Source of the DNA: Flexibacter flexilis DSM 6793
GTDB taxonomy: Bacteria; Bacteroidota; Bacteroidia; Cytophagales; Flexibacteraceae
DNA length: 46,094 nucleotides
NCBI RefSeq assembly: GCF_900112255.1
Contig: NZ_FOLE01000004.1
Coordinates: 275,819-321,912 of the forward strand
Direction of reading: 5' to 3'
The notes under the pieces are model-generated. The model did no database searches and was not told the origin of the DNA. It was given only the letters and a program-made list of their open reading frames with translations. The position numbers and the translations under genes are program-made. This document shows, piece by piece, positions 3,375-25,798 of the stretch (position 1 is the first letter of the stretch; the number at the start of each line of letters is the position of its first letter).

Positions 3375-3378
3375 GGTT

Positions 3379-5718: not shown

Positions 5719-5793
5719 TATTGTTTGATGATTTAGACAATGCAAAATTGAGTCTAAACCACGCGCCCCGCAATACTGATTTATCAGTATTTT

Positions 5794-6564: not shown

Positions 6565-6653
6565 ATTTTTTTGAAAAGTGCGTCAAATGATAAATTCTAG
6601 CGTACTCATTTCACAAATGTAACAAAGTAAACTAAATGACCTTGCGCTATACA

Positions 6654-6685
6654 TTGGTAAAGTATGCACTCAAATCATATATTTG
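6654..6685 (+). promoter_or_regulatory. Candidate promoter for the secreted protein at 6783
   Basis: TTG at 6654-6656 and a perfect TAnnTTTG element (TATATTTG) at 6678-6685 with 21 bases between. It points at the rightward gene and would leave a leader of roughly 90 bases. Confidence 0.45.
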
Positions 6686-6782
6686 TTCTACCTTATCACA
6701 TTCTGCCGTAGTAAGCCAATCAACCACAAACACACAGCACATTTACGAACTAACTAATCCATTGTTTTAAAAACTATTTTTT

Positions 6783-8381: not shown

Positions 8382-8396
8382 TTTTCTAGGAAAAAT

Positions 8397-9497: not shown

Positions 9498-9519
9498 AGT
9501 TCTACCTTTTCTCTCATAA

Positions 9520-9553
9520 AAAAATCCCTGCCAACAGTACGCGACAGGGATTT
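9520..9553 (-). terminator. Terminator after the RmlD-like gene
   Basis: The arms AAATCCCTG and CAGGGATTT around a 15-base loop; on the minus strand the hairpin ends in a run of seven T. It separates the RmlD-like gene run from menE. Confidence 0.85.
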
Positions 9554-9563
9554 GTATGTTTTG

Positions 9564-10478
9564 TTATGATTGCTGTGCTGCCACTTGTTCGGCCAGTATC
9601 GCGATGCCTTCTCGGAACGTGTGCGGCGCGTAACCCAACACGGTTTTTGCTTTGGTAATGTCAAAACCTGTGCGCGGCGGGCGTTTGGCAGGCTGCGTAA
9701 ATTTGCTTGAATCGGTGCGTATCATCGTGTCGGTACTCAAGCCAAAAAACGCGGCGGTTTGCTGTGCCATTTCGTATGGCGTAAGCAATTCTTCACCCGA
9801 AATATTGAAAATACCTTCGGCTTTGTGCTTGACTATCAACCAACAACCCATCGCCAAATCTTCGGCCAGCGTGGGCGTGCGCCATTGGTCATCCACTACC
9901 TGAATGGTTTTGCCGTCTTCCAAACTTTTCTTCACCCAAAGCACAATGTTACTGCGGCTCATGTCCTGCGCAATGCCGTACACCAAAATCGTGCGAGCGA
10001 TAGCCCACTGTAAACCAGCTTGTTGTATTACGACTTGTTCGGCATCGGCTTTGCTTTGGCCATAAAAACTAATTGGGCTGGCGGGAACGTCTTCTTTGTA
10101 AGGACCTGCCGTGCCATCAAAAATAAAGTCGGTGGACAGGTGCAACAAAAATACGCCATGTTTGGCGCAAGAGTCAGCCAAATAACGAACCGCCTCCACA
10201 TTGAGTTGGCGACATTCGGCTTGCTTGCTTTCGCATTCGTCCACATTGGTCATGGCGGCGGTATGAATCACAGCATCGGGGCGCATTTCGGACACGATGG
10301 CTTCTACGGCCTGCGCGTCGGTTACGTCCAGACTTCTATACTCAAAATTCGCAAAATCTCCTTTTAGGCGATTTTGGCCGCGAGCCGTCCCGATTACCTG
10401 ACAATTTTCTTGAGCGGTAAGTAATGTAATGAGTTTTTGGCCTAATAATCCATTAGAACCAGTTACAAGTATTTTCAT
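9564..10478 (-). CDS. RmlD-like NAD(P)-dependent sugar reductase (extended SDR)
   Basis: 304 residues. Starts with MKILVTGSNGLLGQKL, the GxxGxxG Rossmann motif, has HTAAMTNVDECES (about 72-84), LSTDFIFDG (about 114-122) and the catalytic YGQSK (Tyr-x-x-x-Lys, about 138-142). These are the hallmarks of dTDP-4-dehydrorhamnose reductase and related nucleotide-sugar reductases. The rmlA/B/C partners are not next to it, so the real substrate may be different. It is 29 bases downstream of a cyclophilin gene and ends at a strong terminator, so it is probably the last gene of a three-gene transcript. Confidence 0.88.
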   Translation of the reverse strand: MKILVTGSNGLLGQKLITLLTAQENCQVIGTARGQNRLKGDFANFEYRSLDVTDAQAVEAIVSEMRPDAVIHTAAMTNVDECESKQAECRQLNVEAVRYLADSCAKHGVFLLHLSTDFIFDGTAGPYKEDVPASPISFYGQSKADAEQVVIQQAGLQWAIARTILVYGIAQDMSRSNIVLWVKKSLEDGKTIQVVDDQWRTPTLAEDLAMGCWLIVKHKAEGIFNISGEELLTPYEMAQQTAAFFGLSTDTMIRTDSSKFTQPAKRPPRTGFDITKAKTVLGYAPHTFREGIAILAEQVAAQQS

Positions 10479-10507
10479 TTGAAAAATTAGAGAGGATAAA
10501 TGTATTA

Positions 10508-11155
10508 TTAGTTAGAAGGCTGATTATCAAAATCATAATTATAGCGTTCCGCTATTTTTTTGCGACGCATCTTCTGTACTTTTACTTTCATAGTGATGTC
10601 TTTGAGTGGACGGTCGGACATACCTTTAGGCTGCTCGGCTATCTTATGAATCACGTCAATGCCCATGACCGTTTGGCCAAAAACCGTGTAGTTGCTATCC
10701 AAAAAGTGTGTTCCCGAAGGGTTTTCTACCAAATAAAACTGCGAACCACTCGACTCTTTCTTAGGGTTTACATTGTCGCCCATACGTGCGGCAGCCAACG
10801 CGCCTAGTACGTGCTTGCGATTCGGCAAAAATTCGGCTGGAACAGTATAACCCGGTCCACCTGCGCCATCGTCATTTGCATTGCTATTTTTGGAGTTGGG
10901 GTCGCCGCCCTGAATCATAAAATTTTTGATAATGCGGTGAAACGTCGTGCCATCATAAAAACCGCTTTTCGCCAATTTCAAGAAGTTTTCTTTGTGCTGA
11001 GGCGTTTCGTCGAACAACACCAATTCTATATTTCCAAAAGCAGTTTCGATAGTGATCAGATAGTCGCGACCTTTGGGTTTAGCTTTTTTTTCTTGAGCAA
11101 TAGCCATTGGCGAAGCCAACAACAATAATAGAAAGAGAATAAATGTATTTTTCAT
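10508..11155 (-). CDS. Exported cyclophilin-type peptidyl-prolyl isomerase
   Basis: 215 residues, beginning with a signal peptide of 20 residues (FILFLLLLLASPMAIAQ). The cyclophilin core has GFYDGTTFHRIIKNFMIQGG (about 66-85) containing the catalytic Arg and Phe-Met-Gln-Gly, then GSQFYL (about 136) and YTVFGQ (about 157). A KKESSG insertion and a charged C-terminal tail (KMRRKKIAERY) are extra to the minimal fold. It speeds cis-trans proline isomerisation during folding of periplasmic or outer membrane proteins. It lies between a SirB1-like gene (42 bases upstream) and an RmlD-like gene (29 bases downstream). Confidence 0.92.
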   Translation of the reverse strand: MKNTFILFLLLLLASPMAIAQEKKAKPKGRDYLITIETAFGNIELVLFDETPQHKENFLKLAKSGFYDGTTFHRIIKNFMIQGGDPNSKNSNANDDGAGGPGYTVPAEFLPNRKHVLGALAAARMGDNVNPKKESSGSQFYLVENPSGTHFLDSNYTVFGQTVMGIDVIHKIAEQPKGMSDRPLKDITMKVKVQKMRRKKIAERYNYDFDNQPSN

Positions 11156-11197
11156 AAATTTTCAGAAAACTGATTTGTATTGTTTTTAGGGCTAAAA

Positions 11198-12043
11198 TTA
11201 TTCTGTATCGTCGTCGGCAAGCAAATCCAACAACATTTTGATTTCGTTCACTTTATCATCTTCGTTGTTTCGCGTGAAGGAAACCACCAAATTGCGCAAA
11301 ACTCTGAAAATAATATCCACGTGCGAGCATGGTTCGAAGAAAATATCCAAAGGTTCAAGATTGAGCTTAGAAATATAGTTGTCTATGTCTGCTTTGGATA
11401 GAATTACACCTCTACTAAAGGCATTGATATAGAACTGTGTATGTTCTTTTTTGTAAGTCAGGACAAATAAGTTAGGCAAATTTACGCCGTACACAGGCAT
11501 TTTAAGTTTCTGAGCCACAAGCATATATACCGCACAAAGTGTAATTGGATTGCCTTTTTTGGTATCAAGCACCAAGTTGATCATGGAGTTGGCAGGCGAA
11601 TGGAAATTGGTAGTATTGGCCGCAAATTTTAGTTTACCAAAAATAACAGAATTGACCACTTTTACTTGATCTAAAGGATGCATCTCATTTTCCAATTGCA
11701 GCCAAACTTCATAATAAAGCTGTTCAATTTGGGCTTTGATGGTTTCAAATTGCAAATCTGGATACTGATACGTAGCCACCAACCAAAGGCCTTCGAGAAG
11801 GTCTTGGCCGCCTGCTTTTTTCCAATTCAAAAGCCTTTCTTGAAGCTGTTGTTGTTGGAGCAAATGGATGAGTTGTTCTATTCGGAGTTGAACATCGGGG
11901 TCAAGGCTTTTTTCCCATTCTGCTTCCAGCAACGGGATTATTTCGCTTCCCAGCTCCAAAATTTTGGTTTCTACATGGCTGACCACTTCGCGGTCTTCGT
12001 CGCTAATCAGCGAAACGAGTGCTTGCAATTCATTGTTTTGCAT
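11198..12043 (-). CDS. SirB1-family transglutaminase-like protein
   Basis: 281 residues. N-terminal about 90 residues are helical and acidic; the core contains GNPITLCAVYMLVAQKLKMP (about 168-187) with the cysteine of the transglutaminase-like fold and VNLPNLFVL (about 191-199). These features match the SirB1/DUF1499-neighbour group of TPR-transglutaminase proteins (COG2912). The TPR tail usual in that family is short or missing here. The biochemical role of the family is unclear; proteobacterial relatives are described as sirB1. It is the first gene of the SirB1, cyclophilin, RmlD-like run. Confidence 0.75.
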   Translation of the reverse strand: MQNNELQALVSLISDEDREVVSHVETKILELGSEIIPLLEAEWEKSLDPDVQLRIEQLIHLLQQQQLQERLLNWKKAGGQDLLEGLWLVATYQYPDLQFETIKAQIEQLYYEVWLQLENEMHPLDQVKVVNSVIFGKLKFAANTTNFHSPANSMINLVLDTKKGNPITLCAVYMLVAQKLKMPVYGVNLPNLFVLTYKKEHTQFYINAFSRGVILSKADIDNYISKLNLEPLDIFFEPCSHVDIIFRVLRNLVVSFTRNNEDDKVNEIKMLLDLLADDDTE

Positions 12044-12121
12044 AGTCTAAGGCAATTGACTCAATACATAAGGCTTTCAGATGACTTGCTAAATAACAAA
12101 TAAATTTTGTCAATAAACACA

Positions 12122-12155
12122 AAAATCCGTTGCCATTTGACACGACAACGGATTT
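12122..12155 (-). terminator. Terminator of the alanine dehydrogenase gene
   Basis: AAATCCGTTG and CAACGGATTT enclose a 13-base loop, with T runs on both outer sides; it stands 29 bases past the ald stop. Confidence 0.85.
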
Positions 12156-12183
12156 ATTATTGATAATCAATATTTTGCAGCAA

Positions 12184-13299
12184 TTACGCCAACAAAGTTT
12201 CTACGTCTGTCAATGGCAAGCCCCAAGCATCTGCCACACCTTTGTAAACCACTTTGTCGCCAATCACGTTCAAGCCCAATTTCAATTCGGCGTTTTCGCG
12301 GCAAGCCTTCGCCCAACCTTTGTTGGCCAATTGCAACGCATACGGCAAAGTAGCGTTCGTAAGAGCCAACGTAGAAGTGTAAGGCACAGCACCTGGCATA
12401 TTGGCTACGCAATAGTGTACCACGTCGTCGATGATATACGTTGGGTTTTCGTGCGTAGTCGGCTTACAAGTTTCAATACAACCGCCTTGATCCACGGCCA
12501 CGTCCACAAGCACCGTACCAGGGTTCATATCTTTGAGCATATCTCTTGTGATAAGGTGTGGAGCTTTCGCACCAGGGATAAGTACCGCACCCACAATCAA
12601 CGAGGCGTGTTTGATGTGTTCGCGAATGTTATATTCGTTTGAATAAACCGTATTAACATTGGCAGGCATAATTTCGTTGAGGTAACGCAAACGCGGCAAA
12701 CTCACGTCCATAATCGTTACGTTAGCACCCAAGCCAGCCGCCATGCGAGCCGCTTGCATACCAACCACACCGCCACCAAGCACCAACACGTTAGCAGGAC
12801 GCACACCTGGTACGCCTCCCAACAAAATACCTCTGCCTTTTAATGGTTTTTCGAGGTATTTCGCGCCTTCGTGAATCGCCATACGGCCAGCCACTTCCGA
12901 CATCGGCACCAGCAACGGTAACGAACGGTCTGCTTTTTCTACCGTTTCGTAAGCCAAACAAATCGCCTTGCGGCTAATCATAGCGTGCGTAAGCGGCTCA
13001 GAAGAAGCAAAGTGGAAATACGTGAAGAGTAATTGATTTTCTTTGATGAGTGTGTACTCCGACTCGATTGGCTCTTTTACCTTAATAATCATCTCGGCGA
13101 TTTCATACACCGCCTCAATGCTTGGCAAAATCGTTGCGCCAGCTTTTTCATACTCAGCATCAGCAAAACCACTGCCTTCGCCTGCACTGGTTTGTACATA
13201 AACCGTATGGCCGTGTTTTTTAAATTCTGTAACACCAGCAGGCGTAAGAGCTACGCGATTTTCATTGTTTTTGATTTCCTTCGGAACACCTATAATCAT
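12184..13299 (-). CDS. ald: Alanine dehydrogenase
   Basis: 371 residues, the usual length for Ald (EC 1.4.1.1), which interconverts L-alanine and pyruvate with NAD and ammonia. It starts MIIGVPKEIKNNENRVAL, the pyruvate-binding arginine being R15; KVKEP holds Lys75 and FTYFHFAS holds His96, the known active-site residues of the family. The NAD-binding GGGVVGMQAARMAAGLGA follows at about 175-192 and DVAVDQGGC at about 267-275. It is monocistronic with its own terminator. It likely supplies or consumes alanine in nitrogen and cell wall metabolism. Close relatives such as NAD(P) transhydrogenase alpha are longer or lack the full C-terminal part. Confidence 0.95.
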   Translation of the reverse strand: MIIGVPKEIKNNENRVALTPAGVTEFKKHGHTVYVQTSAGEGSGFADAEYEKAGATILPSIEAVYEIAEMIIKVKEPIESEYTLIKENQLLFTYFHFASSEPLTHAMISRKAICLAYETVEKADRSLPLLVPMSEVAGRMAIHEGAKYLEKPLKGRGILLGGVPGVRPANVLVLGGGVVGMQAARMAAGLGANVTIMDVSLPRLRYLNEIMPANVNTVYSNEYNIREHIKHASLIVGAVLIPGAKAPHLITRDMLKDMNPGTVLVDVAVDQGGCIETCKPTTHENPTYIIDDVVHYCVANMPGAVPYTSTLALTNATLPYALQLANKGWAKACRENAELKLGLNVIGDKVVYKGVADAWGLPLTDVETLLA

Positions 13300-13498
13300 G
13301 GCTTCTTCTGTTTTTGGGGAATAATTTTGTTTGTTATTTTGGTTGGTAATTTGGTGGGCAAAACTATGAAAAGTTGTAAGTGTTTGGTACTATTTCTAAA
13401 GAAAAATTTTGCAAAGGCCTTTCACTGCACGCCTATTCAGAATATAATTTCGTTTTTCTTTTTTTTTCTTTTTTCATAAAAACAAAAAACGCATTATA

Positions 13499-15526
13499 CT
13501 ACACCAAAATTTGCTTCAAGGCTTCTTGCACTGAAGCCACAGGCTGTTGGCACGCGTGATTTTTGCATACATACACCAAGGTTTGCCCTTCCACCAACCT
13601 ATTTTCCAACAAAGGCAAATCACTTCCTTGCACCGAACCGGCCACTACTTTATTAGGAATATACACTTTGTCTAAATCGCGGCGCAAACGCTGTGCATTT
13701 TTGCCGACGATGGCCACTTCCGCCACCGATTTGGCCGCGCACAAATACAAACTTGCCCAATTGGACACATATTGCAAATCCGTTTCAAGCATTTTTACCA
13801 CGCTCGAAAGCATGGTTTCGGCTTTTTGCACGTAGTCAGGAATGTACAACAGCGTGCCAAGCGCGTACAGGTTATGCGCCATAATTGAGTTGGAAGCAGG
13901 AATTACGCTATCGAACAACTCTTTTTTGTCGGCGATGAGCCGCTCGGCGTTGCGTGCCGTGAAGAAAAAGAATTTGTCTGTTTCGTCGTAAAATTCCTGT
14001 ACCGCAAAAGCCATCAGGTTTTTGGCCTCCAACAACCACGTTTCATCAAAAGTAGCCTGATACAGTGCCACATAGCCCTGAATCACGGCGGCGTAATCTT
14101 CCAAAAAGCCCTTGATGCTCGTTTTTCCGTTTTTGTAGCTATGGAAAAGTTGCTGGCCATCGGTCATTTTTTCTTTCAGGAAACGGGCATTATCCAAGGC
14201 CATTTTGAGCATAAGCGGCTCATCAAAAGCGCGATACGCATCTACCAAACCTTTGAGCATGAGGCCATTCCACGAAGCCAAAATCTTGTCGTCGAGCGAA
14301 GGACGCACACGCGAGGCGCGATGTTGAAGCAGAATTTTGCTGCAAGCCGACACGTGTGCAAACAAATCCGATTTGCTTACGCCATGCAACTGCGCAAACA
14401 TCGAGTCGGGCAAGCGACGATGCAAAATATTTTTGCCGTGTTCCCAATTGCCTTCTTCATCCACATTATAATATTCCAAGAAAAGCTGCGCATCATTTCC
14501 CAATATTTGTTCTATTTCTGCCTGCTCCCAAACATAAAATTTACCCTCCTCTCCTTCCGAATCAGCGTCTAAGGCCGAATAAAAACCGCCTTCCGAACTC
14601 ATCAATTCTCTTTTTACAAAATTGATAGTTTCAAAAACCACGCCTCTGTACAGCTTGTCCGATGTAACCGTAAAGGCCTCCGAATACAAGCTAATGAGTT
14701 GGGCATTATCGTACAGCATTTTTTCAAAATGGGGAACAAACCACTGGCTATCAACAGAATAACGAGCAAATCCACCACCCAAATGGTCATAAATTCCACC
14801 GTAAGCCATTTCCGTCAGGGTCGTGTTTAGGTGTTGAAAGGCTTGTTTGTCGTCGGTAAAAGCAAAGTATCGGAGCAAAAACAAGTACAGCGACGGCATC
14901 GGGAATTTGTTGGCGGCGCGTTGCAAACCGCCATGCTGGTGATCGAACTGCTGCGCCAATCGCTCAAACGGAGCTTTTAGCGTCGCTATATCAAATGTCG
15001 GATTTTCTTGGGCAAAGAGCTTGTATTTTTCCGTTTCGGTGCGCTGCAAACCTTCCGTAAAGGCTTCCGCCGAACGTAATAATTCTGCTTTGTTATGGCG
15101 GTAGGCTTTGGCTATTTCGCGCAAAACTTGATGCCATTGTTCGGGTCTGAAATACGTGCCGCCCCAAAACGGTTTGGTTTCGGGCGTAAGGAACACGTTG
15201 AGCGGCCAGCCGCCATGTACGCCCATTTGTTGTACGGCATCCATGTAGATTTGATCGAGGTCGGGGCGTTCTTCGCGGTCTATTTTGATACAAACAAACC
15301 ACTCGTTCATGATGTCGGCAATATCATGATTTTCAAAAGATTCTTTTTCCATTACATGACACCAATGGCAAGCAGCATAGCCGATACTTACCAAAATGGG
15401 TTTGTCCTGCGAAGCGGCCAAGTCAAGGGCTTCTTTTCCCCACGGATACCATTGTACGGGGTTATAGGCGTGTTGCAGCAAATACGGACTGCTCTCGTTG
15501 ATAAGGCGATTGGGCGTGTGTTTCAT
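13499..15526 (-). CDS. DUF255 thioredoxin-domain protein (YyaL/SSP411 family)
   Basis: 675 residues. An N-terminal thioredoxin-like domain (about 1-170) carries [15 protein letters not shown] with a Cys-x-x-Cys pair, followed by [19 protein letters not shown]; the remainder is an alpha/alpha toroid like N-acylglucosamine epimerases and glucosidases (for example [17 protein letters not shown]). This is the widespread YyaL/spermatogenesis-associated protein 20 family; its reaction is not established. It is the last gene before an AT-rich accessory block on its downstream-upstream side: the next same-strand gene (an ABC ATPase) lies left-to-right at 15722. Confidence 0.92.
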
Positions 15527-15721: not shown

Positions 15722-16402
15722 TTATTTTAAACCTAATTTTTCGATTTTTTTTCCTATAGCTACCTCTTTCATTTCGGCTTCCAATATAGGAAAGTCCGCT
15801 TTTAGAACAGACTTTACAAAACATCCGTTACTCAATAAATGTATTTCATCGCAGGTATTACTCAAGGTAGAAAATATATGAGATGAAATAATGACTATTT
15901 TATCGAGTTTTTTTAGTTGATGAATTATTTCTGTAATTACAATATTACTTTGTATATCTACTCCATTAAAGGGTTCGTCAAATATGAAATACTCATTATT
16001 TTGCAATAAAATAGCAGTCAGTGCTAGCTTCTTTTGCATTCCCGTAGAATACGTAACAGCATATTGATTTAATGGTAAATCAAAAACATTTTTACTTTCT
16101 ATATCAGCTATTTTTATGCTCCTTGCGTTGCAAAGCAATTGTATATATTCCTTGCCCGTAATTTTTGGGAAAAAGAAAAGCTCTGTTAGTAACAAACCTA
16201 GGTTATTTTTAATTGGTTTAAGACTTGAACTTATTTCACCCTCATAGCTTTCCAAATCGGCAATACATCTAAATAAAGTTGTTTTTCCTGCGCCATTTTC
16301 ACCAACGATTCCATATACTTTTCCGTTATCAAATTGTATATTGATATTTTTAAGAACTTCATTAGTTCCATATTTTTTAGACAAATCTCTGATTACTATC
16401 AT
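15722..16402 (-). CDS. ABC transporter ATP-binding protein (ABC-2 type exporter)
   Basis: 226 residues. Walker A GENGAGKTTL (about 35-44), signature YSTGMQKKLALTAIL (about 117-131) in place of the classic LSGGQ, Walker B YFIFDEPFNGVD (about 138-149) and the switch histidine ISSH (about 173-176) are all intact. The stop-start overlap ATGA with the permease gene (16399-16402) shows translational coupling. Small ATPases of this kind power ABC-2 exporters of peptides, antibiotics or gliding components. The substrate is not visible. The local base composition is clearly more AT-rich than the flanking core genes. Confidence 0.9.
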   Translation of the reverse strand: MIVIRDLSKKYGTNEVLKNINIQFDNGKVYGIVGENGAGKTTLFRCIADLESYEGEISSSLKPIKNNLGLLLTELFFFPKITGKEYIQLLCNARSIKIADIESKNVFDLPLNQYAVTYSTGMQKKLALTAILLQNNEYFIFDEPFNGVDIQSNIVITEIIHQLKKLDKIVIISSHIFSTLSNTCDEIHLLSNGCFVKSVLKADFPILEAEMKEVAIGKKIEKLGLK

Positions 16403-17331
16403 TTTAATAAATACTTAAGGCGATTTTCTGCTTTTTTAAAAAGATAAGGAATTACAAGAATTAATATCGGAGGAAACCAAATACAAAGAGCAAAAAAGAT
16501 ACCTTGAGGTATATTCATTTCATCAGGGTACGCAGAATACTTAGCGGCTATTATGCTAATTAAAAAAGCCCAACCAATCAATAATAAAAGTAAAATTATT
16601 CCCACATTTTGAGGATAATAAATTAAAAGAATGACTATAATTGGCAATACAATCAAAGTTGAAAAAAAAATGGATATTTTAATTTTTTGAAGTATAAAAT
16701 TTCTAGAATTTCCATTGAAAATCCAAACATAATACTCATTTTCAGGTTTTGTATAATAACTTAATGTAGTTAAAAAAACAAGTAAAATTGAAAAAGCTCC
16801 AAGATTAAAATTATTTATATAAACAGCAACAATTCCTAAAATATATGCTATAAAAAACAAATAAAAAGTATTTCGAAACCCTATTATAAACTCAAATGGT
16901 TGCTTTGAAAATGGAGTCCAAATGACAAAATTAAAAGTTGTACGAAAATTTACAAAAGGTAAAAATATTGTCGATATAAACAAGATAAATGCCAAAAGAA
17001 AAAACTGTTTATATAATAGAAACAACAGAAATGGAAATGAACAAATGATATTCTCTATTATTCTTATTTTTTTTAGTTTTACGTTCCCAAAGCAAAGCTT
17101 TAAAAATTCAGTTCTTCGGATTTCTGAAAGTTTGCCGATAAGTACCAGCGCATAAAACACATAAATATATTGTGCAAATTCCGTTTTGCTAAACAAATAA
17201 AGAGAAAAAACAATAAACCCAACTATCAACATAAGGTATGCCAATAATGGTACAAAGACCGCGTCTTTTAATCTGCGGTTTATCATATTATATTGCAATT
17301 TAAAATATTCGATCATTTTTTGTTTATACAT
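16399..17331 (-). CDS. ABC-2 type transporter permease subunit
   Basis: 310 residues with about eight hydrophobic segments (for example VPLLAYLMLIVGFIVFSLYL, FSILLVFLTTLSYY, IVLLPIIVI-type stretches, and a last one near IWFPPILILVIPYLF). Positively charged N-terminus MYKQKMIEYFKLQYNMINRR on the cytosolic side. Coupled to the ATPase gene by a 4-base overlap, so the two probably form a homo- or heterodimeric exporter. No signature beyond the hydrophobic layout; function is inferred from the neighbour. Confidence 0.8.
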   Translation of the reverse strand: MYKQKMIEYFKLQYNMINRRLKDAVFVPLLAYLMLIVGFIVFSLYLFSKTEFAQYIYVFYALVLIGKLSEIRRTEFLKLCFGNVKLKKIRIIENIICSFPFLLFLLYKQFFLLAFILFISTIFLPFVNFRTTFNFVIWTPFSKQPFEFIIGFRNTFYLFFIAYILGIVAVYINNFNLGAFSILLVFLTTLSYYTKPENEYYVWIFNGNSRNFILQKIKISIFFSTLIVLPIIVILLIYYPQNVGIILLLLLIGWAFLISIIAAKYSAYPDEMNIPQGIFFALCIWFPPILILVIPYLFKKAENRLKYLLK

Positions 17332-17469
17332 TTTCGTTTGTTCACAATTATAAAATAATACTGCTGAATCAAATTGAAGTGTTAAAATTTTAGTTCATAA
17401 CAATTAAGCAAAATTTCATAAATTCATTTACTTTGTTTTACCATTATTAATATAAATTAATTCAATTAT

Positions 17470-18108
17470 TTATTTCAATAAATATAATTCTTTTTGTAAA
17501 TTTTCTTTTGCTTGATTTTCTAGTTTAGAATTAAAAAATTCTGTTTTAAAAATTCGATCCATCGACAAAAAATGATGCAACACTTTTTTTCGACCTGAAT
17601 TATAAATAATGTCTGGATAAATAATATATTCTTTTCTTACATTTTTGTAATATATTTCGTATATATTCCATGATTGGCCTAATACAGAAAGGTCAGCATC
17701 TGTAAAATAATTGGTATCATTATCAGCAGATTGGGCATGCGATTGCGTCGCCATAATTTGCATTTTACAAATGTTTATTATTTGGTTATCTACCCCAATT
17801 TGTAGCATTCTTTTTTCAGCAAGTGCCGCGCTTCTTTGCTCGTTATCAGATTTTAATACATTGTAAATAGCGTCGTGATAGTAAATTGAAAATAAAATAA
17901 TATTCCAATTTTGTATTTTTTCTTTTACTTCCACTAATTGCACTAAAAGGTTTTCTAGATGTTGTAATGTATGATAATATCGTCTATGATTGGAATAGTT
18001 TTTTTCTATTTCATTCCATAAATAATTGATCGTATTTTCATTATCTGTATAATTTCTTATAAGATCAAAAAAAAAATCTTTTAACATAGTAATTTTTGTG
18101 TAAAACAT
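17470..18108 (-). CDS. HD-superfamily phosphohydrolase-like protein (COG4339-like)
   Basis: 212 residues. HRRYYHTLQHLENLL (about 37-51) supplies the first histidine, SIYYHDAIYN (about 71-80) the His-Asp pair, and NYFTDADLSVLGQ (about 132-144) a further Asp; this spacing is that of the predicted metal-dependent HD phosphohydrolases sometimes annotated as NMDA-receptor-like. The family is assumed to act on nucleotides or phosphoesters, but no substrate is known. The gene may start at the second methionine (MLKDFFFDLIRN, eight codons in). It is 192 bases downstream of the endonuclease V cluster in the same direction, so it could belong to it. Confidence 0.75.
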   Translation of the reverse strand: MFYTKITMLKDFFFDLIRNYTDNENTINYLWNEIEKNYSNHRRYYHTLQHLENLLVQLVEVKEKIQNWNIILFSIYYHDAIYNVLKSDNEQRSAALAEKRMLQIGVDNQIINICKMQIMATQSHAQSADNDTNYFTDADLSVLGQSWNIYEIYYKNVRKEYIIYPDIIYNSGRKKVLHHFLSMDRIFKTEFFNSKLENQAKENLQKELYLLK

Positions 18109-18300
18109 GAATTATTTTCAACTATCAAAACCCGTTCAATTAAGTCGCTGAATAGTTCTGATTGATACGTTTTAATATTGATTAATGTCGTTTTTTTTAA
18201 TTGCACATCATATTTTAATATTTGGGAAAGTGGAGGAAATTAAAGTACAAAAGTTGAATCAAATAATTAATGTCGTACTTGCGTCAATACCTTATTAGTT

Positions 18301-18807
18301 TCAGTTTTTTTCTTTCGTTAATATGTCCAATTTTTTTAGCAAATCAGGTATTCTATTTTGCCCTTTCATTTGTTCTATTAACCTTGCCGCTTCTCTAACA
18401 TCCATGCCAATAGAAGTAATATAAAGTGGTTTAATGCTTTTCCCTCTTAAAATTTGCTGCTTGTTTTTATCAATTGTTGCAAAATTAGTCTTAGCTACTC
18501 CAATAATCGGTATTTTTCCGCCAAGTGCGTCAAATAAATGCCCTCCCAAGCCAAATTTTTCGTTGTCATCTAAATAGACATAGCCGTCTATAATAATAAA
18601 TTCAATATTCTTAAATGTATTTTTTTTAAGTAGCGACAATATACAAGGGAGTTCTCTTTTATAAAATTGTCCTGATTGATAATCTCCAGCGATTTCAGTT
18701 AATTCTGAATATACATCAAAGTTCTCTTCGTTTGTCCAATTGTCAAATGCTACGCAAATAGTTTTGGCTTTGGTATCAAAATAATATGTGTCAAATGCTA
18801 AAATCAT
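18301..18807 (-). CDS. Compact endonuclease V family protein
   Basis: 168 residues, shorter than typical endonuclease V (about 220). Visible family features: AFDTYY (Asp6), YKRELP (Glu52), IIDGYVYLDD (Asp74), KFGLGGHL (His90) and PIIGVAKTNF (Lys106); together they match the catalytic Asp/Glu/Asp set and the FGL-x-HL and IGVAK blocks. About 35 N-terminal residues are absent and the PYVP wedge that reads the damaged base is replaced by YQSG. Endonuclease V cuts the second phosphodiester 3' to hypoxanthine in DNA or inosine in RNA. It starts two bases after the stop of an AlkB-like gene, as the third gene of a tight operon. Confidence 0.8.
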   Translation of the reverse strand: MILAFDTYYFDTKAKTICVAFDNWTNEENFDVYSELTEIAGDYQSGQFYKRELPCILSLLKKNTFKNIEFIIIDGYVYLDDNEKFGLGGHLFDALGGKIPIIGVAKTNFATIDKNKQQILRGKSIKPLYITSIGMDVREAARLIEQMKGQNRIPDLLKKLDILTKEKN

Positions 18808-18809
18808 TA

Positions 18810-19622
18810 TTAAATATTTTTTGGGTTTTGGGGATATAAAACATCACCTAAACTAATTGTAAAATTAAAAAAAGGATAATGATAATTTAAACTTTTATTT
18901 TCTTCTCCTCTATGCTTAAAAAACAACTTTTCTTGCTCTTCATTGGCTAATATTAATTGTTCACCATTTGAAAAAAAAGGGAAATTATTTTTAAAATGAA
19001 TATACGTTTTTGAAGTTCTAAACGTTATTCCTAACCACCTATTATCAATTACTGGTTTCTTTATTTTCGGGTTAGCATCTAAAACAATTTTGTGTTGATA
19101 TTTCATATTGGTTTCAGTCGAAAAAAGAATTACAGAATTGTGGGTTAAAGAAATATCAAATTCATCATTTGTTACTTTATCTTTAATTTTTAGTTTTCTT
19201 ATATTTTGTTCAGATATATCATCTGGATATTCATAACAAGAGAATAAACCAATATATGAATTATCTTCTAAATCCAAATTTTGGTCTGAATGATAATTCA
19301 TTTTTGAATACTTCAGATCATAAATTTCAATCAGGGCATTATTAAAATATTGAATAGGAATTTCAGTAAGATTCTTTTTTATAGTTTGATTAATCTTATT
19401 GATAATTAAAAGATGAACATCTGCAAAATTTTGCGCAGGAATACTATACTTGCTTGTAGTTCTTACAATTGGAATTGATCCATTGGCAATATTAACTAAT
19501 TGATTAGCAACTCTTCCATTGGTTATATTTTCAAACTCAACTGAATTAGACAACTCATTGAATAAGTTGTGTTCAAATGGAACCAAAATTTTATAAAATC
19601 CTAAATCAGTTATCATACTCAT
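18810..19622 (-). CDS. AlkB-like 2OG-Fe(II) dioxygenase, short paralogue
   Basis: 270 residues. The double-stranded beta-helix signature is visible: MNYHSDQ gives the HxD motif (His111, Asp113), KYQHKIV the distal His177, and NRWLGITFRTSK the two arginines (Arg195, Arg202) that bind 2-oxoglutarate in the AlkB manner. Cytosolic, no signal peptide. AlkB-family enzymes oxidatively demethylate N-alkylated bases in DNA or RNA; other members oxidise proteins or hypermodify bases. The ATG follows the stop of the preceding paralogue with no gap, and the endonuclease V gene follows after 2 bases. Shares a C-terminal F-x-x-S-L-G-D motif with the larger paralogue. Confidence 0.72.
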   Translation of the reverse strand: MSMITDLGFYKILVPFEHNLFNELSNSVEFENITNGRVANQLVNIANGSIPIVRTTSKYSIPAQNFADVHLLIINKINQTIKKNLTEIPIQYFNNALIEIYDLKYSKMNYHSDQNLDLEDNSYIGLFSCYEYPDDISEQNIRKLKIKDKVTNDEFDISLTHNSVILFSTETNMKYQHKIVLDANPKIKKPVIDNRWLGITFRTSKTYIHFKNNFPFFSNGEQLILANEEQEKLFFKHRGEENKSLNYHYPFFNFTISLGDVLYPQNPKNI

Positions 19623-20852
19623 TTAATAAATAGGTTTTTCATAATCTCCCAAATTCATACTGAAATGAACTTTCCCATACTCAACAATATTTTCTGTTTT
19701 ATTTTCCTCAATATAAGATGCTCTTAAGTTTTCAATAGCATTTAATGTCATTGGTTCAAGTTTTATTAAATTGCCGTTTTCTATAATAAATGTTTGGTTA
19801 TTTATGTATTTGGCTTCAACATTTGAGCAGCGAACCACATAGCCCATTCTCACGGGTATTCGTTCTACATTGAGTATGGATGGTCTTATTTCATGAGTGT
19901 ATAATCTATTTGTAGAAAGCGGTATTATGAACGCCGAGTTAGGGTATAATATTACACTAAATTCTTTTTCTAAACGTTCATCTTTTACAGTATTTTTCAA
20001 CTTAAAATGAAGTTTTGTTAACCCTGTAATCTCTTTATAGCACAAGTCAAATTTATCATTTTTAGAGGGACTTAAATCAGTAAATTCTGTTCGGTCATAA
20101 AAAGTACAAAAAGCCATAAGTCCTTCTTTTGGCATATCTTTAGTCTTATCAGAATGTGCTTTAATTTTTGCCTTTATTTCCCTTGTACTTTCTTTTGATT
20201 TTTTAGTATTTTCATATATTTGAGCTAAAACATGATTAAATTTTATTTCCTTTTCAAAAGTATATTTTACAGACTCATTTAATTTATTTATGATAAAATG
20301 GTCTGTTGTTCTGAAATTATCGGTTGAACCCGTAAAATTACTTGAGCACCGTAATAAATGAAAGCTTAGTATTTCTGTATCATTTTCAATTTCTCTCAAA
20401 ATTTCTGTTATATAAATACCCGTTCTGAATGCTTTAGATTCTTTATTAGATTCGGTTAATTTTTGAAATTCGTGTTCAGATTTAATTTTATTAAAATATT
20501 TTTTTTCTGAAAAAAGATTTCTAAAATAAACACCTGAACTACTAACAATAATTGGGACTTCTCCTAGTGATACTAATTGCACTTTCTCATTCAGTAGATT
20601 TTCATAGTTTGTAGATACCTCTTGAATGATATAGAACGCTATTTCCACATTTTCAACTACAGAAAAATCACCACAAATATATATTTTAATGCCGTTATTT
20701 TCTTTCTGTATTTCAGAAAAATTATTTTTTACTGTACCACAAAAATTGTCAATTAAATATAAAAGTTCAGTATTATTTTCTTCATTTTTATTTAAAACAA
20801 CAAGAACATTTTTATCTTTACAAATTTTATTTTCAAATTGAGATACTATCAT
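19623..20852 (-). CDS. AlkB-like 2OG-Fe(II) dioxygenase, long paralogue with extra N-terminal domain
   Basis: 409 residues. The C-terminal half has KAHSDK (His233, Asp235), RLYTHEIRPS (His320) and RIPVRMGYVVRCSN (Arg335, Arg341), the iron and 2-oxoglutarate ligands arranged as in AlkB. The stretch NFRTTDHFIINKLNES aligns with AQNFADVHLLIINKINQT of the next gene, so the two are paralogues. The first about 150 residues form an additional alpha/beta-looking domain (KNVLVVLNKN, GIKIYICGDFSVVE) absent from the short paralogue and not recognised. First gene of the three-gene cluster; the 347 bases upstream hold a gene remnant. Confidence 0.68.
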   Translation of the reverse strand: MIVSQFENKICKDKNVLVVLNKNEENNTELLYLIDNFCGTVKNNFSEIQKENNGIKIYICGDFSVVENVEIAFYIIQEVSTNYENLLNEKVQLVSLGEVPIIVSSSGVYFRNLFSEKKYFNKIKSEHEFQKLTESNKESKAFRTGIYITEILREIENDTEILSFHLLRCSSNFTGSTDNFRTTDHFIINKLNESVKYTFEKEIKFNHVLAQIYENTKKSKESTREIKAKIKAHSDKTKDMPKEGLMAFCTFYDRTEFTDLSPSKNDKFDLCYKEITGLTKLHFKLKNTVKDERLEKEFSVILYPNSAFIIPLSTNRLYTHEIRPSILNVERIPVRMGYVVRCSNVEAKYINNQTFIIENGNLIKLEPMTLNAIENLRASYIEENKTENIVEYGKVHFSMNLGDYEKPIY

Positions 20853-21199
20853 TTTATTTATTTTTATGCAGTGTAAAATTTAGACATTTTTTGTTTTATT
20901 TCTGAAAGTATTATCTTTTTTTTTGCAAAGTATTTTTATTGACTTTTCTCTAATCTTTGGGTTTGTATTATTAATTAGGTGTCAATTTCTTTTTTAATGA
21001 TAGGATCAGGATAATAATCGTTATTACTATTATTTCTGTCTGTTCCTGTTTTTAAAATATAATCAAGATATTGATAGGTTCTTTTTTATATTAATAAAGG
21101 AATTGCTATCGACCTGATAGCCATTTATCACTTTTTCTCCGCCTATTTGAGTCCCAAAATGGCCGTAATTCAATTATTAAATAAATAGATGTTTTTGAA
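20853..21199. other. AT-rich spacer containing a gene remnant
   Basis: Apart from the remnant at 20975-21173 this 347-base gap has long T runs and no recognisable RNA, repeat or convincing small gene. The promoter of the dioxygenase cluster must lie in its left half; I see no clear TAnnTTTG element on the minus strand. Confidence 0.5.
20975..21173 (-). pseudogene. Frameshifted gene remnant
   Basis: Read on the minus strand, the first half codes for NYGHFGTQIGGEKVINGYQ followed by VDSNSFINIKK, and the second half, in another frame, for RTYQYLDYILKTGTD and ending PDPIIKKEIDT and a stop. The switch falls at a run of six A (T6 at 21082-21087), so a single-base indel has broken the frame. No start codon and no longer homologous frame precede it: TAA TAA lies directly upstream. 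Peptide composition looks protein-like but I do not recognise the family. It may be the C-terminal piece of a lost toxin or cassette gene. Confidence 0.5.
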
Positions 21200-21793
21200 T
21201 CAATATTTTTTAAGTTCATTATTTAATTTATCAAGAAACTGTTGCTGTTTTTTATTGTTTTTATAGGATCGTTGATAAGGCCCACAACTATAAATATCAG
21301 AAATATTCTCAATGTTAAAACTCCAATCATTTTTATTTTTTATTAAAACAGATAATCTTTCATTACAACTTTGACACAATTCAGTAAATGTTGTCTTATT
21401 CTTTAATTGATTAAAATCAATAGAAATTGAAAAACCTTTTGTATTAGAACCATCAATAAAATCTCCCGTAGCATTAAATTTAGTTACGGGAATACCTCCC
21501 CAATCTATCGTTTTACCTTCGGGTAAATTTATAGCGTCGATATTATTTTCTTTCAACATTATATCTTGCTGACCTTCTGCAAAAGGGCTTAAAATATATT
21601 GTAATGTTGTTCCTTTTGGGACGGTTATATTTTTTACAACTGTTGGTTCTTTTGTAATAAAATAAGGTACAGGTGAGTAGTATCCACCCGATGTACTTCC
21701 AATATTTCCAAATCCATTTAACATTGTTTTGAATATTTTTATTACTATAATAATAGCACCTATTCCTATCGTAAAATAAGTTATTTTTTTCAT
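21200..21793 (-). CDS. Membrane-anchored hypothetical protein
   Basis: 197 residues, no family recognised. One N-terminal transmembrane segment (about 4-22: ITYFTIGIGAIIIVIKIFK) followed by a Gly/Ser/Tyr-rich linker (GSTSGGYYSPVPYF) and an about 150-residue polar domain with the cysteine pair CQSC (about 144-147) and a further Cys at about 170. The anchor type suggests a periplasmic domain attached to the inner membrane. Neighbours are a gene remnant and an attC-like repeat, so it probably belongs to a cassette-like accessory region. Confidence 0.65.
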   Translation of the reverse strand: MKKITYFTIGIGAIIIVIKIFKTMLNGFGNIGSTSGGYYSPVPYFITKEPTVVKNITVPKGTTLQYILSPFAEGQQDIMLKENNIDAINLPEGKTIDWGGIPVTKFNATGDFIDGSNTKGFSISIDFNQLKNKTTFTELCQSCNERLSVLIKNKNDWSFNIENISDIYSCGPYQRSYKNNKKQQQFLDKLNNELKKY

Positions 21794-21831
21794 TTTGATC
21801 TTGCCTTTGTAAGGTCAATTTTGCAAAATTA

Positions 21832-21927
21832 CCGCTAACAGTTGGGGGCTTGGCGATGGTGGGTTTCAGAGCACAAAGCTTAAGTTTGCACGTCAGCCCG
21901 CCATATTGCCAAACCGATGTTAGCGGC
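21832..21927. repeat. attC-like folded intergenic repeat
   Basis: Perfect 9-base outer inverted repeat CCGCTAACA / TGTTAGCGG (21832-21840, 21918-21926), and an inner pair GGCTTGGCGATGGTGGG with CCCGCCATATTGCCAAACC that is complementary apart from a 2-base bulge and a few G-T positions. The 95-base size and the two nested, bulged stems with a GTTAGC end are those of integron attC recombination sites, as found in Bacteroidota cassette arrays. No integron integrase is in the window. Could also be another type of palindromic intergenic repeat. Confidence 0.55.
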
Positions 21928-21929
21928 TG

Positions 21930-22856
21930 TTATTCTTTAAGGTAAAGAGTCTCGTTACCAAAGTCAATAATAGCCTTATGTTCTACTAAAAAATCTGCCC
22001 CTAATATTCCACCAATATTTTCAGATTTTTCTTTTGTTCTTGTCTCTTTTATATAAGCATACATATCTTCAATAGTTAGCTTGTTAATTTTATACCTATG
22101 ATTTACCAAGCTAAATATCAATGGTATTGTATTTTCGTAAACAAAACCTACAGAACCAGTAGGTCCACCATAGCTATTGCCAGTATTCTTTATCTTCAAT
22201 GAAAGGTCAACGGCAAAAACGGAATCAATTGTGGTGAAGGCTACAGTACTTAAAGTGAAGTTCCTTGTCAATCCACCAATTTCAATTTTCACTAAATACC
22301 GTTGTCTTACACTATCAAATTTTATTGGGATACTAATGTATTTTTCTTTACTTAATTTAGCTTTCAAGCATTCCAAGGTTTCAATTTTAGGATTTAAGAA
22401 AAATTTTTTCTTTTTATAATCTATTACTATACGATTGGTTTTAATCCAGTCTACTCCAGCCATTCCAGCATTTATTTCGCCATCAGGTACTTCAAAAATG
22501 GATGCAGGTACATTTTTTAATTGATTGATCCCAACCTGCAAGAGGCTTACATTAGCGCTGTCTCGTCCAAGTTCGCTTACTTTACCAGGTTTAGAAATTC
22601 CAAAACTTCCATTTGATACCAAACTATCAATGCCGACTTGTGAAGCAAAAGCGTGATTCAGTTGTAAATAAAAGGAAGCGTTTGAATGAAACATTAAATT
22701 GGCAGGAAAGCCATTAACAGAAGCTTTGAAAATAGGCCGTTTTCCTGCGATTTTCTTCATTTCAAAAGGAACTCCATTTTTTTCTTGACACTGTGATAAA
22801 GTTCTATTCGTTATACAAAGACAAATAATTATTGCAAATAAAATTCTAGTGTTCAT
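21930..22856 (-). CDS. Retropepsin-like exported protein without catalytic aspartates
   Basis: 308 residues from ATG at 22854-22856, chosen because a signal peptide (NTRILFAIIICLCITNRTLS) starts there; an upstream in-frame ATG would begin inside a repeat. The two halves look like aspartic-protease lobes: VNGFPANLMFHSNASFYL and, after DWIKTNRIVIDYKKKKFFL, IEIGGLTRNFTLSTVAFTTI, ending GGILGADFLVEHKAIIDF. In true proteases the lobes have D-T/S-G; here FHSN and LSTV replace them, so it is probably catalytically dead and perhaps binds peptides. Lies between an attC-like repeat and its truncated copy, which marks it as a possible integron cassette. Confidence 0.7.
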   Translation of the reverse strand: MNTRILFAIIICLCITNRTLSQCQEKNGVPFEMKKIAGKRPIFKASVNGFPANLMFHSNASFYLQLNHAFASQVGIDSLVSNGSFGISKPGKVSELGRDSANVSLLQVGINQLKNVPASIFEVPDGEINAGMAGVDWIKTNRIVIDYKKKKFFLNPKIETLECLKAKLSKEKYISIPIKFDSVRQRYLVKIEIGGLTRNFTLSTVAFTTIDSVFAVDLSLKIKNTGNSYGGPTGSVGFVYENTIPLIFSLVNHRYKINKLTIEDMYAYIKETRTKEKSENIGGILGADFLVEHKAIIDFGNETLYLKE

Positions 22857-22890
22857 ATCTTTTGTAATATTAAGGTTTTTTGCTTTAATA

Positions 22891-22920
22891 GCCGCTAACG
22901 TTGAAGCATTGGCGTTGTTG
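22891..22920. repeat. Truncated second attC-like repeat
   Basis: GCCGCTAACGTTGAAGCATT then GGCGTTGTTGGGG resembles the left part of the repeat at 21832, but the matching right arm is missing; a REP pair starts about 24 bases further. Together with the intact copy it brackets the retropepsin-like gene. Confidence 0.4.
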
Positions 22921-22943
22921 GGGTAATCAAGGCTCATCCTTCC

Positions 22944-23014
22944 CCGTGGTCTGTGTCCTCACAGACCACATACGTTTATCGTCTTTTATGATTTGTGAAG
23001 ACACAAACCATGGA
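22944..23014. repeat. REPIN-like pair of inverted REP hairpins
   Basis: The first hairpin has a perfect 10-bp stem GTGGTCTGTG / CACAGACCAC with loop TCCT (22946-22969). About 20 bases on, TGATTTGTG / CACAAACCA with loop AAGA (22989-23010) is the same sequence family in inverted orientation and slightly diverged. Two inverted REP units of this kind (REPINs) are mobilised by RAYT transposases, none of which is seen here. Confidence 0.55.
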
Positions 23015-23020
23015 GGAGAA

Positions 23021-23641
23021 TTATTTTTTCTCGCATATTTTTTCAATATTCTCAATAATCTGATTCACTCTTTTCTCAATAGGATCAGGATCTACCATAT
23101 TTAACCAAAAAATTGCTTGGTTATCTCTCATCTTTTTTAAGTGTCTATTAATTTCATCGTCACTCATCTTCGTACCTTGTCTTGGCCAGTAAACATTACC
23201 AAGCTTATGGGCCGCTAAAAAAATATCCTTAAGAACGTTGTCTAAATCCTCGAATGGTACGATTGATTCTTGACCGAAAGCAGCTCTAAATTTATATTTT
23301 AATTTTGAAAGTTGAATAAATACATCTTTTTCCTTTTCATATCTTTCGTAAACAACATATGCTCTATTTAATAGTTCTGTAATTTCTTCTCTTTCATTAG
23401 GTGCTTTCTCTCTTGTTGAACCTTCATTAATAGACGAGTATGGACTTCTAATTCTTTTAATACTCTCAGCTGAGCTATAAAACAGATATAATACTTCCTC
23501 ACTAAGTTCATATCTGCGCTTCCATTTTGCCTCTCTTCGCCATGAATCAATGCCCCAAATTGCTACAATCGATGTTACTATAACACCAACACTTTCAACT
23601 ATATCAAAATAGTCTTTAATTGTCAAACAAAGAAAAATCAT
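23021..23641 (-). CDS. Membrane-anchored hypothetical protein
   Basis: 206 residues, not assigned to a family. An N-terminal hydrophobic segment (DIVESVGVIVTSIVAIWGI, about 13-31) is followed by a basic stretch WRREAKWKRRYELSEEV and then a mainly helical cytosolic domain with many Glu/Lys/Arg. It resembles small stand-alone membrane proteins of accessory regions. The stop is next to a REPIN-like pair and the start is followed upstream by an AT-rich gap. Start chosen at the first ATG; the frame has no better downstream ATG. Confidence 0.6.
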   Translation of the reverse strand: MIFLCLTIKDYFDIVESVGVIVTSIVAIWGIDSWRREAKWKRRYELSEEVLYLFYSSAESIKRIRSPYSSINEGSTREKAPNEREEITELLNRAYVVYERYEKEKDVFIQLSKLKYKFRAAFGQESIVPFEDLDNVLKDIFLAAHKLGNVYWPRQGTKMSDDEINRHLKKMRDNQAIFWLNMVDPDPIEKRVNQIIENIEKICEKK

Positions 23642-23893: not shown

Positions 23894-25798
23894 CTAAACT
23901 AATTTAGCACCTGCTACGATGTCTTCTACTACCGTTGGGTCGAGTAGCGTAGAGGTATCGCCCAAGTTAGAAATGTCGCCTTCTGCTACTTTACGCAGGA
24001 TGCGGCGCATAATCTTACCCGAACGCGTTTTTGGTAAACCTTTCACTATCTGAATTTTATCAGGTTTAGCGATTGGCCCAATAATTTTGCTTACCGTCGC
24101 GATAATCTCGGACTTGAGCAAACTGCTTTCCATTGGCACGTGTGTATCACAAATCACGAAAGCATAAATGCCTTGTCCTTTGATGTCGTGCGGATAGCCT
24201 ACTACCGCCGATTCCACTACGGCCAAATGTTCGTTGATGGCGTTTTCTACTTCTGCCGTACCCATGCGGTGGCCAGACACGTTGATTACGTCGTCCACGC
24301 GGCCTAAGATGCGGTAATAACCGTCCTCGTCGCGGCGGCAGCCGTCACCCGTGAAATACATTCCTGCATAAGTAGAGAAGTAATTCAAGCGACAACGCTC
24401 ATGGTCTCCGTAGGTTGTACGAATCATCGAAGGCCAAGGGAATTTGATACACAAATTGCCTTCTACGCCATTGCCTACCAATTCTTCGCCTTTTTCGTCC
24501 ACCAAAACAGGCTGAATACCTGGCAATGGCAAAGTAGCAAAAGATGGTTTGGTTGGCGTAACACCCGCCAAAGGCGCAATCATGATGCCACCTGTCTCGG
24601 TTTGCCACCAAGTATCCGTGATAGGACAGTGGCCTTTGCCGATGTGGTCATGGTACCAGTGCCAAGCCTCTTCGTTGATAGGCTCGCCCACCGAACCCAA
24701 CACACGCAAAGAGCTAAGATCGTGGCCTTCTACATATTCCAAACCAAAGCCTTGCAATGAACGGATAGCGGTAGGAGCTGTATAGAAAATATTAACTTTA
24801 TGTTTTTCAATTACTTTCCAGAAACGGCTTGCGTCTGGATAAGTCGGGATGCCTTCAAACATAACGGTTGTTGCACCGTTGAGCAATGGGCCATATACCA
24901 AGTATGAGTGACCAGTAATCCAACCCACATCGGCAGTACACCAATATACGTCACCGTCGTTGTATTGGAACACGTTGGCGAAAGTATAACCCGCGTACAC
25001 CATGTAACCAGCCGTCGTATGTACTACGCCTTTAGGCTTGCCTGTAGAGCCAGAAGTATAAAGGATGAAAAGCATATCTTCTGCTTCCATTGGTTCTGCT
25101 TCACAAATAGCACTTGCTTTGGCTTCTTCTTCGTGCCACCAAATATCGCGGCCTTCTGTGAATGTTACAGGCGTATTGGCATAACGCAAAACAATAGAAC
25201 GCTTTACGGTTGGGCTTTTAGCCAAAGCCTCATCCACGATTCCTTTAATATCAATGCTTTTATTGCCACGATACGCACCGTCCGAAGTAAGCACTACGGT
25301 TGCTTCGGCATCGTTGAGGCGGTCGGCTAATGAAGAAGCCGAAAAACCTGCAAAAACTACAGAGTGGATAGCACCAATACGCGCACAAGCCAACACCGAA
25401 ACAGCTAACTCAGGCACCATTGGCATATAAATACAAACGCGATCGCCTTTTTTTACGCCATTGTTTTTTAAAATATTGGCCGCTTTACATACGCGCTCAT
25501 GAAGCTCTTTGTAAGTGATATGTTGAGCCGCTTGAGTAGGATCGTTCGGTTCCCAAATAATGGCGGTTTGATTGCCACGCGTGAACAAATGACGGTCTAA
25601 ACAGTTTTCCGTAATGTTGTGCAAACTTCCTCCATACCATTTTACACTTGGTTCTTCGAAGTTCCATTCCAACACCGAATCCCATTTTTTTCTCCAGAAG
25701 AAAGATTCGGCCTGATTTGCCCAAAATTGCTCTGGGTTTTGCACGCTTTCATTGTATGCACTCCAATATTCTCCAAAAGAGTTAATTCGGTTAATCAT
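23894..25798 (-). CDS. acs: Acetyl-CoA synthetase (AMP-forming)
   Basis: 634 residues. The ANL motifs are clear: LYTSGSTGKPKGVVHT (about 255-270), YWCTADVGWITGHSY, WWQTETGG (about 395), YFTGDGCRRDEDGYYRILGR (about 480-499), DVINVSGHRMGTAEVE and, near the C-terminus, LPKTRSGKIMRRIL with the lysine that is acetylated in Acs regulation. Overall length and the N-terminal FGEYWSAY region fit Acs (EC 6.2.1.1), which makes acetyl-CoA from acetate. It stands alone with a terminator; upstream an exact palindrome TGACAATTGTCA occurs in the leader region and may be an operator. Confidence 0.97.
   Translation of the reverse strand: MINRINSFGEYWSAYNESVQNPEQFWANQAESFFWRKKWDSVLEWNFEEPSVKWYGGSLHNITENCLDRHLFTRGNQTAIIWEPNDPTQAAQHITYKELHERVCKAANILKNNGVKKGDRVCIYMPMVPELAVSVLACARIGAIHSVVFAGFSASSLADRLNDAEATVVLTSDGAYRGNKSIDIKGIVDEALAKSPTVKRSIVLRYANTPVTFTEGRDIWWHEEEAKASAICEAEPMEAEDMLFILYTSGSTGKPKGVVHTTAGYMVYAGYTFANVFQYNDGDVYWCTADVGWITGHSYLVYGPLLNGATTVMFEGIPTYPDASRFWKVIEKHKVNIFYTAPTAIRSLQGFGLEYVEGHDLSSLRVLGSVGEPINEEAWHWYHDHIGKGHCPITDTWWQTETGGIMIAPLAGVTPTKPSFATLPLPGIQPVLVDEKGEELVGNGVEGNLCIKFPWPSMIRTTYGDHERCRLNYFSTYAGMYFTGDGCRRDEDGYYRILGRVDDVINVSGHRMGTAEVENAINEHLAVVESAVVGYPHDIKGQGIYAFVICDTHVPMESSLLKSEIIATVSKIIGPIAKPDKIQIVKGLPKTRSGKIMRRILRKVAEGDISNLGDTSTLLDPTVVEDIVAGAKLV

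Follow-up and report, generated by a model that had tools for sequence, protein, structure and literature searches.

Paired AlkB-like oxygenase genes and an associated short endonuclease V gene in Flexibacter flexilis and other Bacteroidota

The stretch of DNA analysed here, 46,094 nucleotides of Flexibacter flexilis DSM 6793 (contig NZ_FOLE01000004.1, positions 275,819 to 321,912; hereafter, the window), carries three consecutive genes on its minus strand: A1 (19623–20852; 409 amino acids, aa), encoding a divergent AlkB-like 2-oxoglutarate (2OG)-Fe(II) oxygenase, A2 (18810–19622; 270 aa), encoding an AlkB-like oxygenase paralogue, and EV (18301–18807; 168 aa), encoding a short endonuclease V (EndoV). 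As judged by sequence comparison, these proteins are AlkB-like and EndoV homologues in which the metal ligands are retained; pairing of A1 with A2 is near-obligate, and the association with EV runs one way, from the pair to the nuclease. We tentatively propose, at somewhat less than an even chance, that A1 and A2 constitute an AlkB-type oxygenase unit acting on a modified or damaged base, and that EV then nicks the strand.

The A1/A2 and A2/EV gaps are 0 and 2 bases, respectively, a spacing that suggests co-transcription of all three genes. Since relatives of each in other genomes align over most of the length at 39–69% identity, we consider A1, A2 and EV to be real genes rather than chance open reading frames (ORFs). 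Positions, shared strand and spacing are all as described in an earlier sequence-only reading of the window, which had also recognised two AlkB-like paralogues and an EndoV, an identification that the comparisons below support.

The assignment of EV is the most direct. The window protein passes the cutoff of the EndoV family PF04493 (E = 6.1e-8; 33 bits versus a cutoff of 23.4), and the EV family profile matches residues 45–223 of the EndoV structure 3goc (E = 5.7e-10). The Asp/Glu/Asp/Lys set picked out by the sequence-only reading, D6, E52, D74 and K106, which we take to be the catalytic set of endonuclease V, is kept in every covering row (29 rows), and EV shares with EndoV the Tyr of the wedge region and a GxFxxRE stretch. 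At 168 aa, EV is shorter than the matched EndoV chains (217–253 aa): residues 1–44 of 3goc have no counterpart, the middle is reduced, and in the window EV no His stands opposite the C-terminal GH of 3goc, a residue that we presume to be conserved in full-length EndoV. The C-terminal part of EV also weakly resembles DUF99 (PF01949; E = 0.0019), scoring 18 bits, below the cutoff of 32.7. Endonuclease dU, the haloarchaeal DUF99 protein, is encoded in linkage with uracil-DNA glycosylase (PMC11585767). This provides a precedent for linkage of an EndoV-superfamily nuclease gene with that of a different base-repair enzyme; EV differs in that it lies under the PF01949 cutoff and over that of EndoV, and in that its partner is a pair of oxygenases rather than a glycosylase.

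A2 is recognisable as a member of the AlkB family (PF13532; E. coli AlkB, ALKBH2, ALKBH3 and ALKBH5). The window A2 narrowly passes the PF13532 cutoff (E = 2.7e-7; 31.4 bits versus 31.2), all nine A2 family members match the profile (E up to 1; best E = 2.1e-10), and A2 scores above the cutoff in each of the seven pair genomes tested. Searched against PDB, the A2 family profile finds ALKBH2 at E = 0.009, and profile comparison with ordinary Bacteroidota AlkB proteins gives 95.0%. Conservation was assessed over 26 rows including the window, one of which (G826) ends at 150 aa: the iron ligands H111 and D113 are present in 26/26 rows, and H177 and R202 in all 25 rows long enough to include them. 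Where AlkB proteins have the initial Arg of their RxxxxxR motif, A2 has a Trp, W196, in 25/25 covering rows. The neighbouring R195 stands one position out of register and is variable (Arg in six rows, Lys in 16, Gln in two and Asn in one, with one row missing), and it is probably this residue that the sequence-only reading took for the first Arg when crediting both large proteins with the HxD, a distal His and two Arg. All of these features hold for A1; for A2, the HxD and His stand and the two Arg do not. Because W196 replaces the first Arg, we group A2 as AlkB-like on its family profile and not as a canonical AlkB. In ALKBH5, the equivalent residue, Arg277, is likely to contact the 2OG C5 carboxylate (PMC3985658). 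With Trp at this place, A2 may bind 2OG otherwise or not at all, and may serve as a substrate-binding partner.

A1 is more divergent. It comprises an N-terminal region (approximately residues 1–150), an AlkB-like core (approximately 160–345) and, at the C-terminus, an extension alignable with A2. Window A1 has no match to PF13532; four of nine A1 family members match, all below the cutoff (best E = 5.6e-4), and the top score among A1 relatives is 20.6 bits versus the required 31.2. Direct comparison of A1 with ordinary Bacteroidota AlkB proteins is weak (hhalign 64.7%; E = 6e-5). A1 and A2, by contrast, align to each other at 97.2% over 243 columns, bearing out their paralogy, and A1 carries both the HxD...H and the RxxxxxR signatures, with H233, D235, H320, R335 and R341 kept in 26/26 rows (window included). 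Since a PF13532 match of its own is absent and the direct AlkB match is weak, A1 is classified as AlkB-like through A2 and its invariant ligands. Having the full AlkB ligand set, A1 would be the likelier catalytic subunit, A2 being without the canonical 2OG-anchoring Arg. What sets the two proteins apart from the AlkB family, with which both share the HxD...H iron ligands, is that they are divergent paralogues kept as a pair, that both have a C-terminal extension, and that A1 has a 150-aa N-terminal region and A2 the Trp substitution. AlphaFold models of A1 and A2, built from two-row alignments, had pLDDT of 31.2 and 32.5 and were not used.

Several candidate similarities of A1 were rejected. 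A BRCT domain at the N-terminus, suggested by below-cutoff matches to PF00533 (A1 consensus, E = 0.0078; the A1 of G033, E = 0.098), was not upheld by comparison with a LigA BRCT profile of six domains, which scored 13.3 when column-shuffled controls reached 17.1. Matches to NSUN2 (E = 0.006) disappeared with the family profile, and we do not believe a capsid-protein match of the N-terminal region (E = 0.05).

We found A1 and A2 together in 23 Bacteroidota genomes or contigs, in 22 of which they are adjacent, in the same order and separated by 0–25 bp. A search for the same triad in other Bacteroidota, proposed in the sequence-only reading, was thus successful, and the triad's absence elsewhere, named there as a refuting outcome, does not apply: of the 23 carriers, 22 also encode EV, beside the pair in 13 (the window, a Lutibacter contig that holds the full triad, G290, G533, G566, G578, G596, G635, G705, G758, G786, G847 and G893) and elsewhere in the genome in nine (G033, G048, G063, G399, G554, G577, G702, G735 and G826). 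Instead of the 2-bp gap seen in the window, nine of the 13 linked loci have a 4-bp overlap of A2 with EV, G566 one of 8 bp and G893 one of 44 bp, the last probably a matter of start-site choice. In G635 the order is EV-A1-A2, with 44 bp between EV and A1. Beyond Bacteroidota, the pair lies side by side in three actinomycete records (two Embleya and one Nonomuraea; 39–47% identity).

The pair is sporadic and EV is more widespread. In a phylum sample of 395 genomes, the window included, A1 is present in three and EV in 20; in the genus of G290 (g67; 348 genomes) in 13 and 71, respectively, and in the genus of G399 (g68; 141 genomes) in four and 23, with EV encoded in 3/3, 13/13 and 4/4 of the A1 genomes. 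One g68 genome without an A1 match (G841:C1) matches EV three times, twice at full length and once in part. Among 98 order relatives, strong A2 matches were found in five (the window genome G000, G033, G048, G063 and G067), and seven further genomes matched A2 only at E = 1.9e-6 or worse.

As judged by one-sided tests that treat genomes as independent, with no species-tree correction, the pair and EV are associated in g67 (p = 4e-10; EV in 13/13 pair genomes versus 71/348), in g68 (p = 6e-4; 4/4 versus 23/141) and among the order relatives without the window (p = 0.003; 3/4 versus EV in 10/97). Because EVs linked to the pair could make the association trivial, we retested with these dropped: for unlinked pair genomes alone, p is 0.001 (g67), 0.02 (g68) and 0.003 (order relatives), and 1e-5 combined, or 6e-5 with the same-genus G033 and G048 merged. 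The dependence is one-way: in g67, 58 of the 71 EV genomes have no pair. Whereas the sequence-only reading had taken the triad as a single unit, the data describe a core of A1 and A2, with EV as a partner that can be separated from it.

On these grounds we infer a physical A1-A2 complex, catalysis, a sequential order of action and a nucleobase substrate, as follows. A1 and A2 would function as a unit, probably a heteromeric Fe(II)/2OG oxygenase of the AlkB type, and would oxidise a nucleobase of DNA or RNA that is either modified or damaged. EV would nick the strand next to the oxidation product, or next to lesions that the oxygenase cannot restore, and nick-directed repair or RNA decay would finish the process after the cut. 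The one-way association fits such a sequential scheme, and parallel repair alone would not predict it.

Parallel repair is an alternative in keeping with what the two families are known to do, AlkB proteins demethylating and EndoV acting on deaminated bases. The pair could reverse alkyl lesions and EV independently handle deaminated bases, the genes travelling together only because the same agents, such as nitrosating compounds, produce both kinds of damage. The abundance of EV without the pair in g67 is in line with this, as are the chemical-stress-like genes found nearby (see below). Such a kit alone would not, however, lead one to expect EV to be nearly always present where the pair is, or the genes to become tightly coupled again and again. 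Furthermore, alkyl reversal is already covered in six of the seven pair genomes tested, which also hold ordinary AlkB-like proteins (one or two further ones each); in the window genome, A2 is the sole PF13532 match. We regard this explanation as rather unlikely.

The linkage between the pair and EV has a complex history. On an EV tree of 46 rows, which includes 11 of the 13 linked EVs, linkage requires eight changes, at least five of them forced by well-supported branches; together with the EV-A1-A2 order of G635, this indicates that the linkage formed or broke repeatedly. Around 21 EV genes without an adjacent pair, no A1 or A2 remnants (E up to 0.01) were detected within 1.5 kb. By identity, window A1 and A2 are closest to those of G533, a g67 genome that has the triad (69% and 65%), and the window EV groups on the tree with those of G533 and G118, both g67 (support 95/96). 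These relationships make it likely that the triad reached the window genome by transfer from a G533-like donor. The modules of 13 g67 genomes and G399 have a G+C content (GC) of 25–35%. EV on its own can be mobile, as evidenced by a short EndoV gene (L020) on a Moraxella osloensis plasmid, approximately 1 kb from a Tn3-family transposase.

A number of observations weigh against a functional coupling of the pair with EV, in addition to the weak direct match of A1 to AlkB proteins and the uncorrected phylogeny in the association tests. For the order relatives, p is only 0.06 at the genus level, and linked EVs show mild clustering on the EV tree, 23 of 500 shuffles of the linkage label having come out as low. 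G067 has no short EV and carries A1 and A2 on different contigs, although it holds an EndoV-like protein of greater length (233 aa). Searches of the two Embleya records did not reveal EV, and the A2 frame of G826 (locus L142) ends prematurely in a 67%-complete genome, as a result of either decay or an assembly error. The g67 pair carriers are all large genomes (4.7–6.7 Mb). Finally, among 24 loci compared for neighbours within several kb (G893, G826 and G847 not included), the most common neighbour family of the pair is EV (11/24), but ABC ATPases (8/24), AraC regulators (7/24) and SDR enzymes (6/24) recur as well. As AraC and SDR genes do so in two bacterial families, part of the linkage may reflect a shared genomic hot spot.

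Taken to the extreme, there would be no functional link at all, and the genes would merely share a hot spot in the genomes of large-genome generalists, as the genome sizes, the lack of species-tree control and the recurrence of AraC, SDR and ABC genes would allow. We consider this very improbable: gene order is tight in 13 genomes, the linked EVs are scattered over the EV tree, and the unlinked cases are associated too.

The window triad sits in an AT-rich, acquired-looking stretch (15722–23641, minus strand) flanked by a DUF255/thioredoxin-domain gene (13499–15526) and a gene that, judged by eye, we take to encode an acetyl-CoA-synthetase-like protein (23894–25798). In 2-kb windows, GC is 0.26–0.33 between 15 and 24 kb and 0.36–0.47 outside; the triad itself has 27.0% GC, compared to 43.7% for bases 1–15500 and 40.5% from base 24000 onward, in agreement with the AT-rich block noted in the sequence-only reading. 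The 347 bases 5' of A1 contain no ORF of at least 60 aa. Promoter-like and terminator-like sites in 17400–21300 show no excess over shuffled sequence. The pattern TTTG-N-TANNTTTG, which we take to be a Bacteroidota-type promoter, occurs 10 times in the window (shuffle mean, 4.8), with no match upstream of A1 (20853–21199).

The same AT-rich stretch holds further genes. An ABC transporter ATPase and a protein without a Pfam match are encoded in 15722–17331; the top NCBIfam score of the ATPase is to a lantibiotic-protection ABC family, at 100 bits far under the cutoff of 310. Just downstream of EV lies a gene for a 212-aa protein (17470–18108) for which Pfam gives no match at E up to 10 and that, by eye, presumably resembles HD-type metal phosphohydrolases. 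Two genes upstream of A1 is an aspartyl-protease-like gene (21930–22937).

Genes recurring near the pair or EV in other genomes (AraC, SDR, FAD-enzyme, DUF1801, DUF4256, AHSA1 and glyoxalase-fold) suggest a connection to chemical stress rather than to phage conflict; it is the AraC, SDR, FAD-enzyme, glyoxalase-fold and AHSA1 genes among them that resemble chemical-stress genes, in keeping with parallel repair. DUF4256, DUF1801 and AHSA1 genes recur near EV. At six pair-free g67 EV loci (L106, L107, L108, L111, L114 and L115), EV is followed by a gene for a 456–466-aa protein, the L107 copy of which was tested and has no Pfam match at E = 1e-5.

The sequence-only reading had also raised an antiphage role, which in our formulation would be directed against modified phage bases. 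The patchy spread (A1 in just 3/395 phylum genomes), the AT-rich, acquired-looking island and the repeated changes of linkage are all features that such a system could display, but the searches did not bear this suggestion out, and we deem it improbable. PADLOC models matched none of A1, A2 and EV (0 families at E up to 1), and among 10 neighbours from six loci the one match was of a FAD enzyme to a desaturase-named model. Two other window proteins do hit PADLOC models: the aspartyl-protease-like protein, through its C-terminal part, the candidate PDC-M08B (E = 4.8e-7), and the ABC ATPase, several ATPase models. Neither A1 nor A2 has a match in 50,697 phage records, and a scan of viral contigs, in which A2 was not included, yielded no A1 relative. 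EV, for its part, is far more common without the pair, and EV-like proteins are encoded by phages themselves: 15 Prevotella Lak megaphage records (H11–H25) hold short EndoV relatives with 33–36% identity over 68–75% of EV. EV-like proteins are present in two viral contigs as well (L030 and L031).

A role in RNA modification or quality control strikes us as distinctly unlikely, if less so than phage defence. The pair would oxidise a modified base of tRNA or mRNA, with EV cleaving RNA that contains inosine or is unmodified. The sporadic occurrence of the pair is unlike that of housekeeping repair. The human EndoV is a nuclease for inosine-containing RNA (PMC3741642), and RNA is also the target of ALKBH5 (PMC3985658). 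The scanned neighbours, however, include no recognised RNA enzyme, and the sequences by themselves do not separate RNA from DNA as the substrate.

Our preferred reading remains that of an A1-A2 oxygenase followed by EV incision. More doubtful is an oxidise-then-incise route in which a heteromeric AlkB-type oxygenase makes a product that the short EV recognises: the AlkB-type reaction would then need a nuclease partner instead of directly restoring the base, and A2 would have re-engineered or lost 2OG binding. We found no description of an AlkB-EndoV gene cluster in the open-access literature, a search that did not cover many subscription papers and preprints. If our reading is true, the chemistries of AlkB-like oxygenases and endonuclease V would be joined in one pathway, and the module would offer a way to find out what endonuclease V does in bacteria, with A1 adding to the AlkB-like proteins a branch that lies under Pfam's cutoff.

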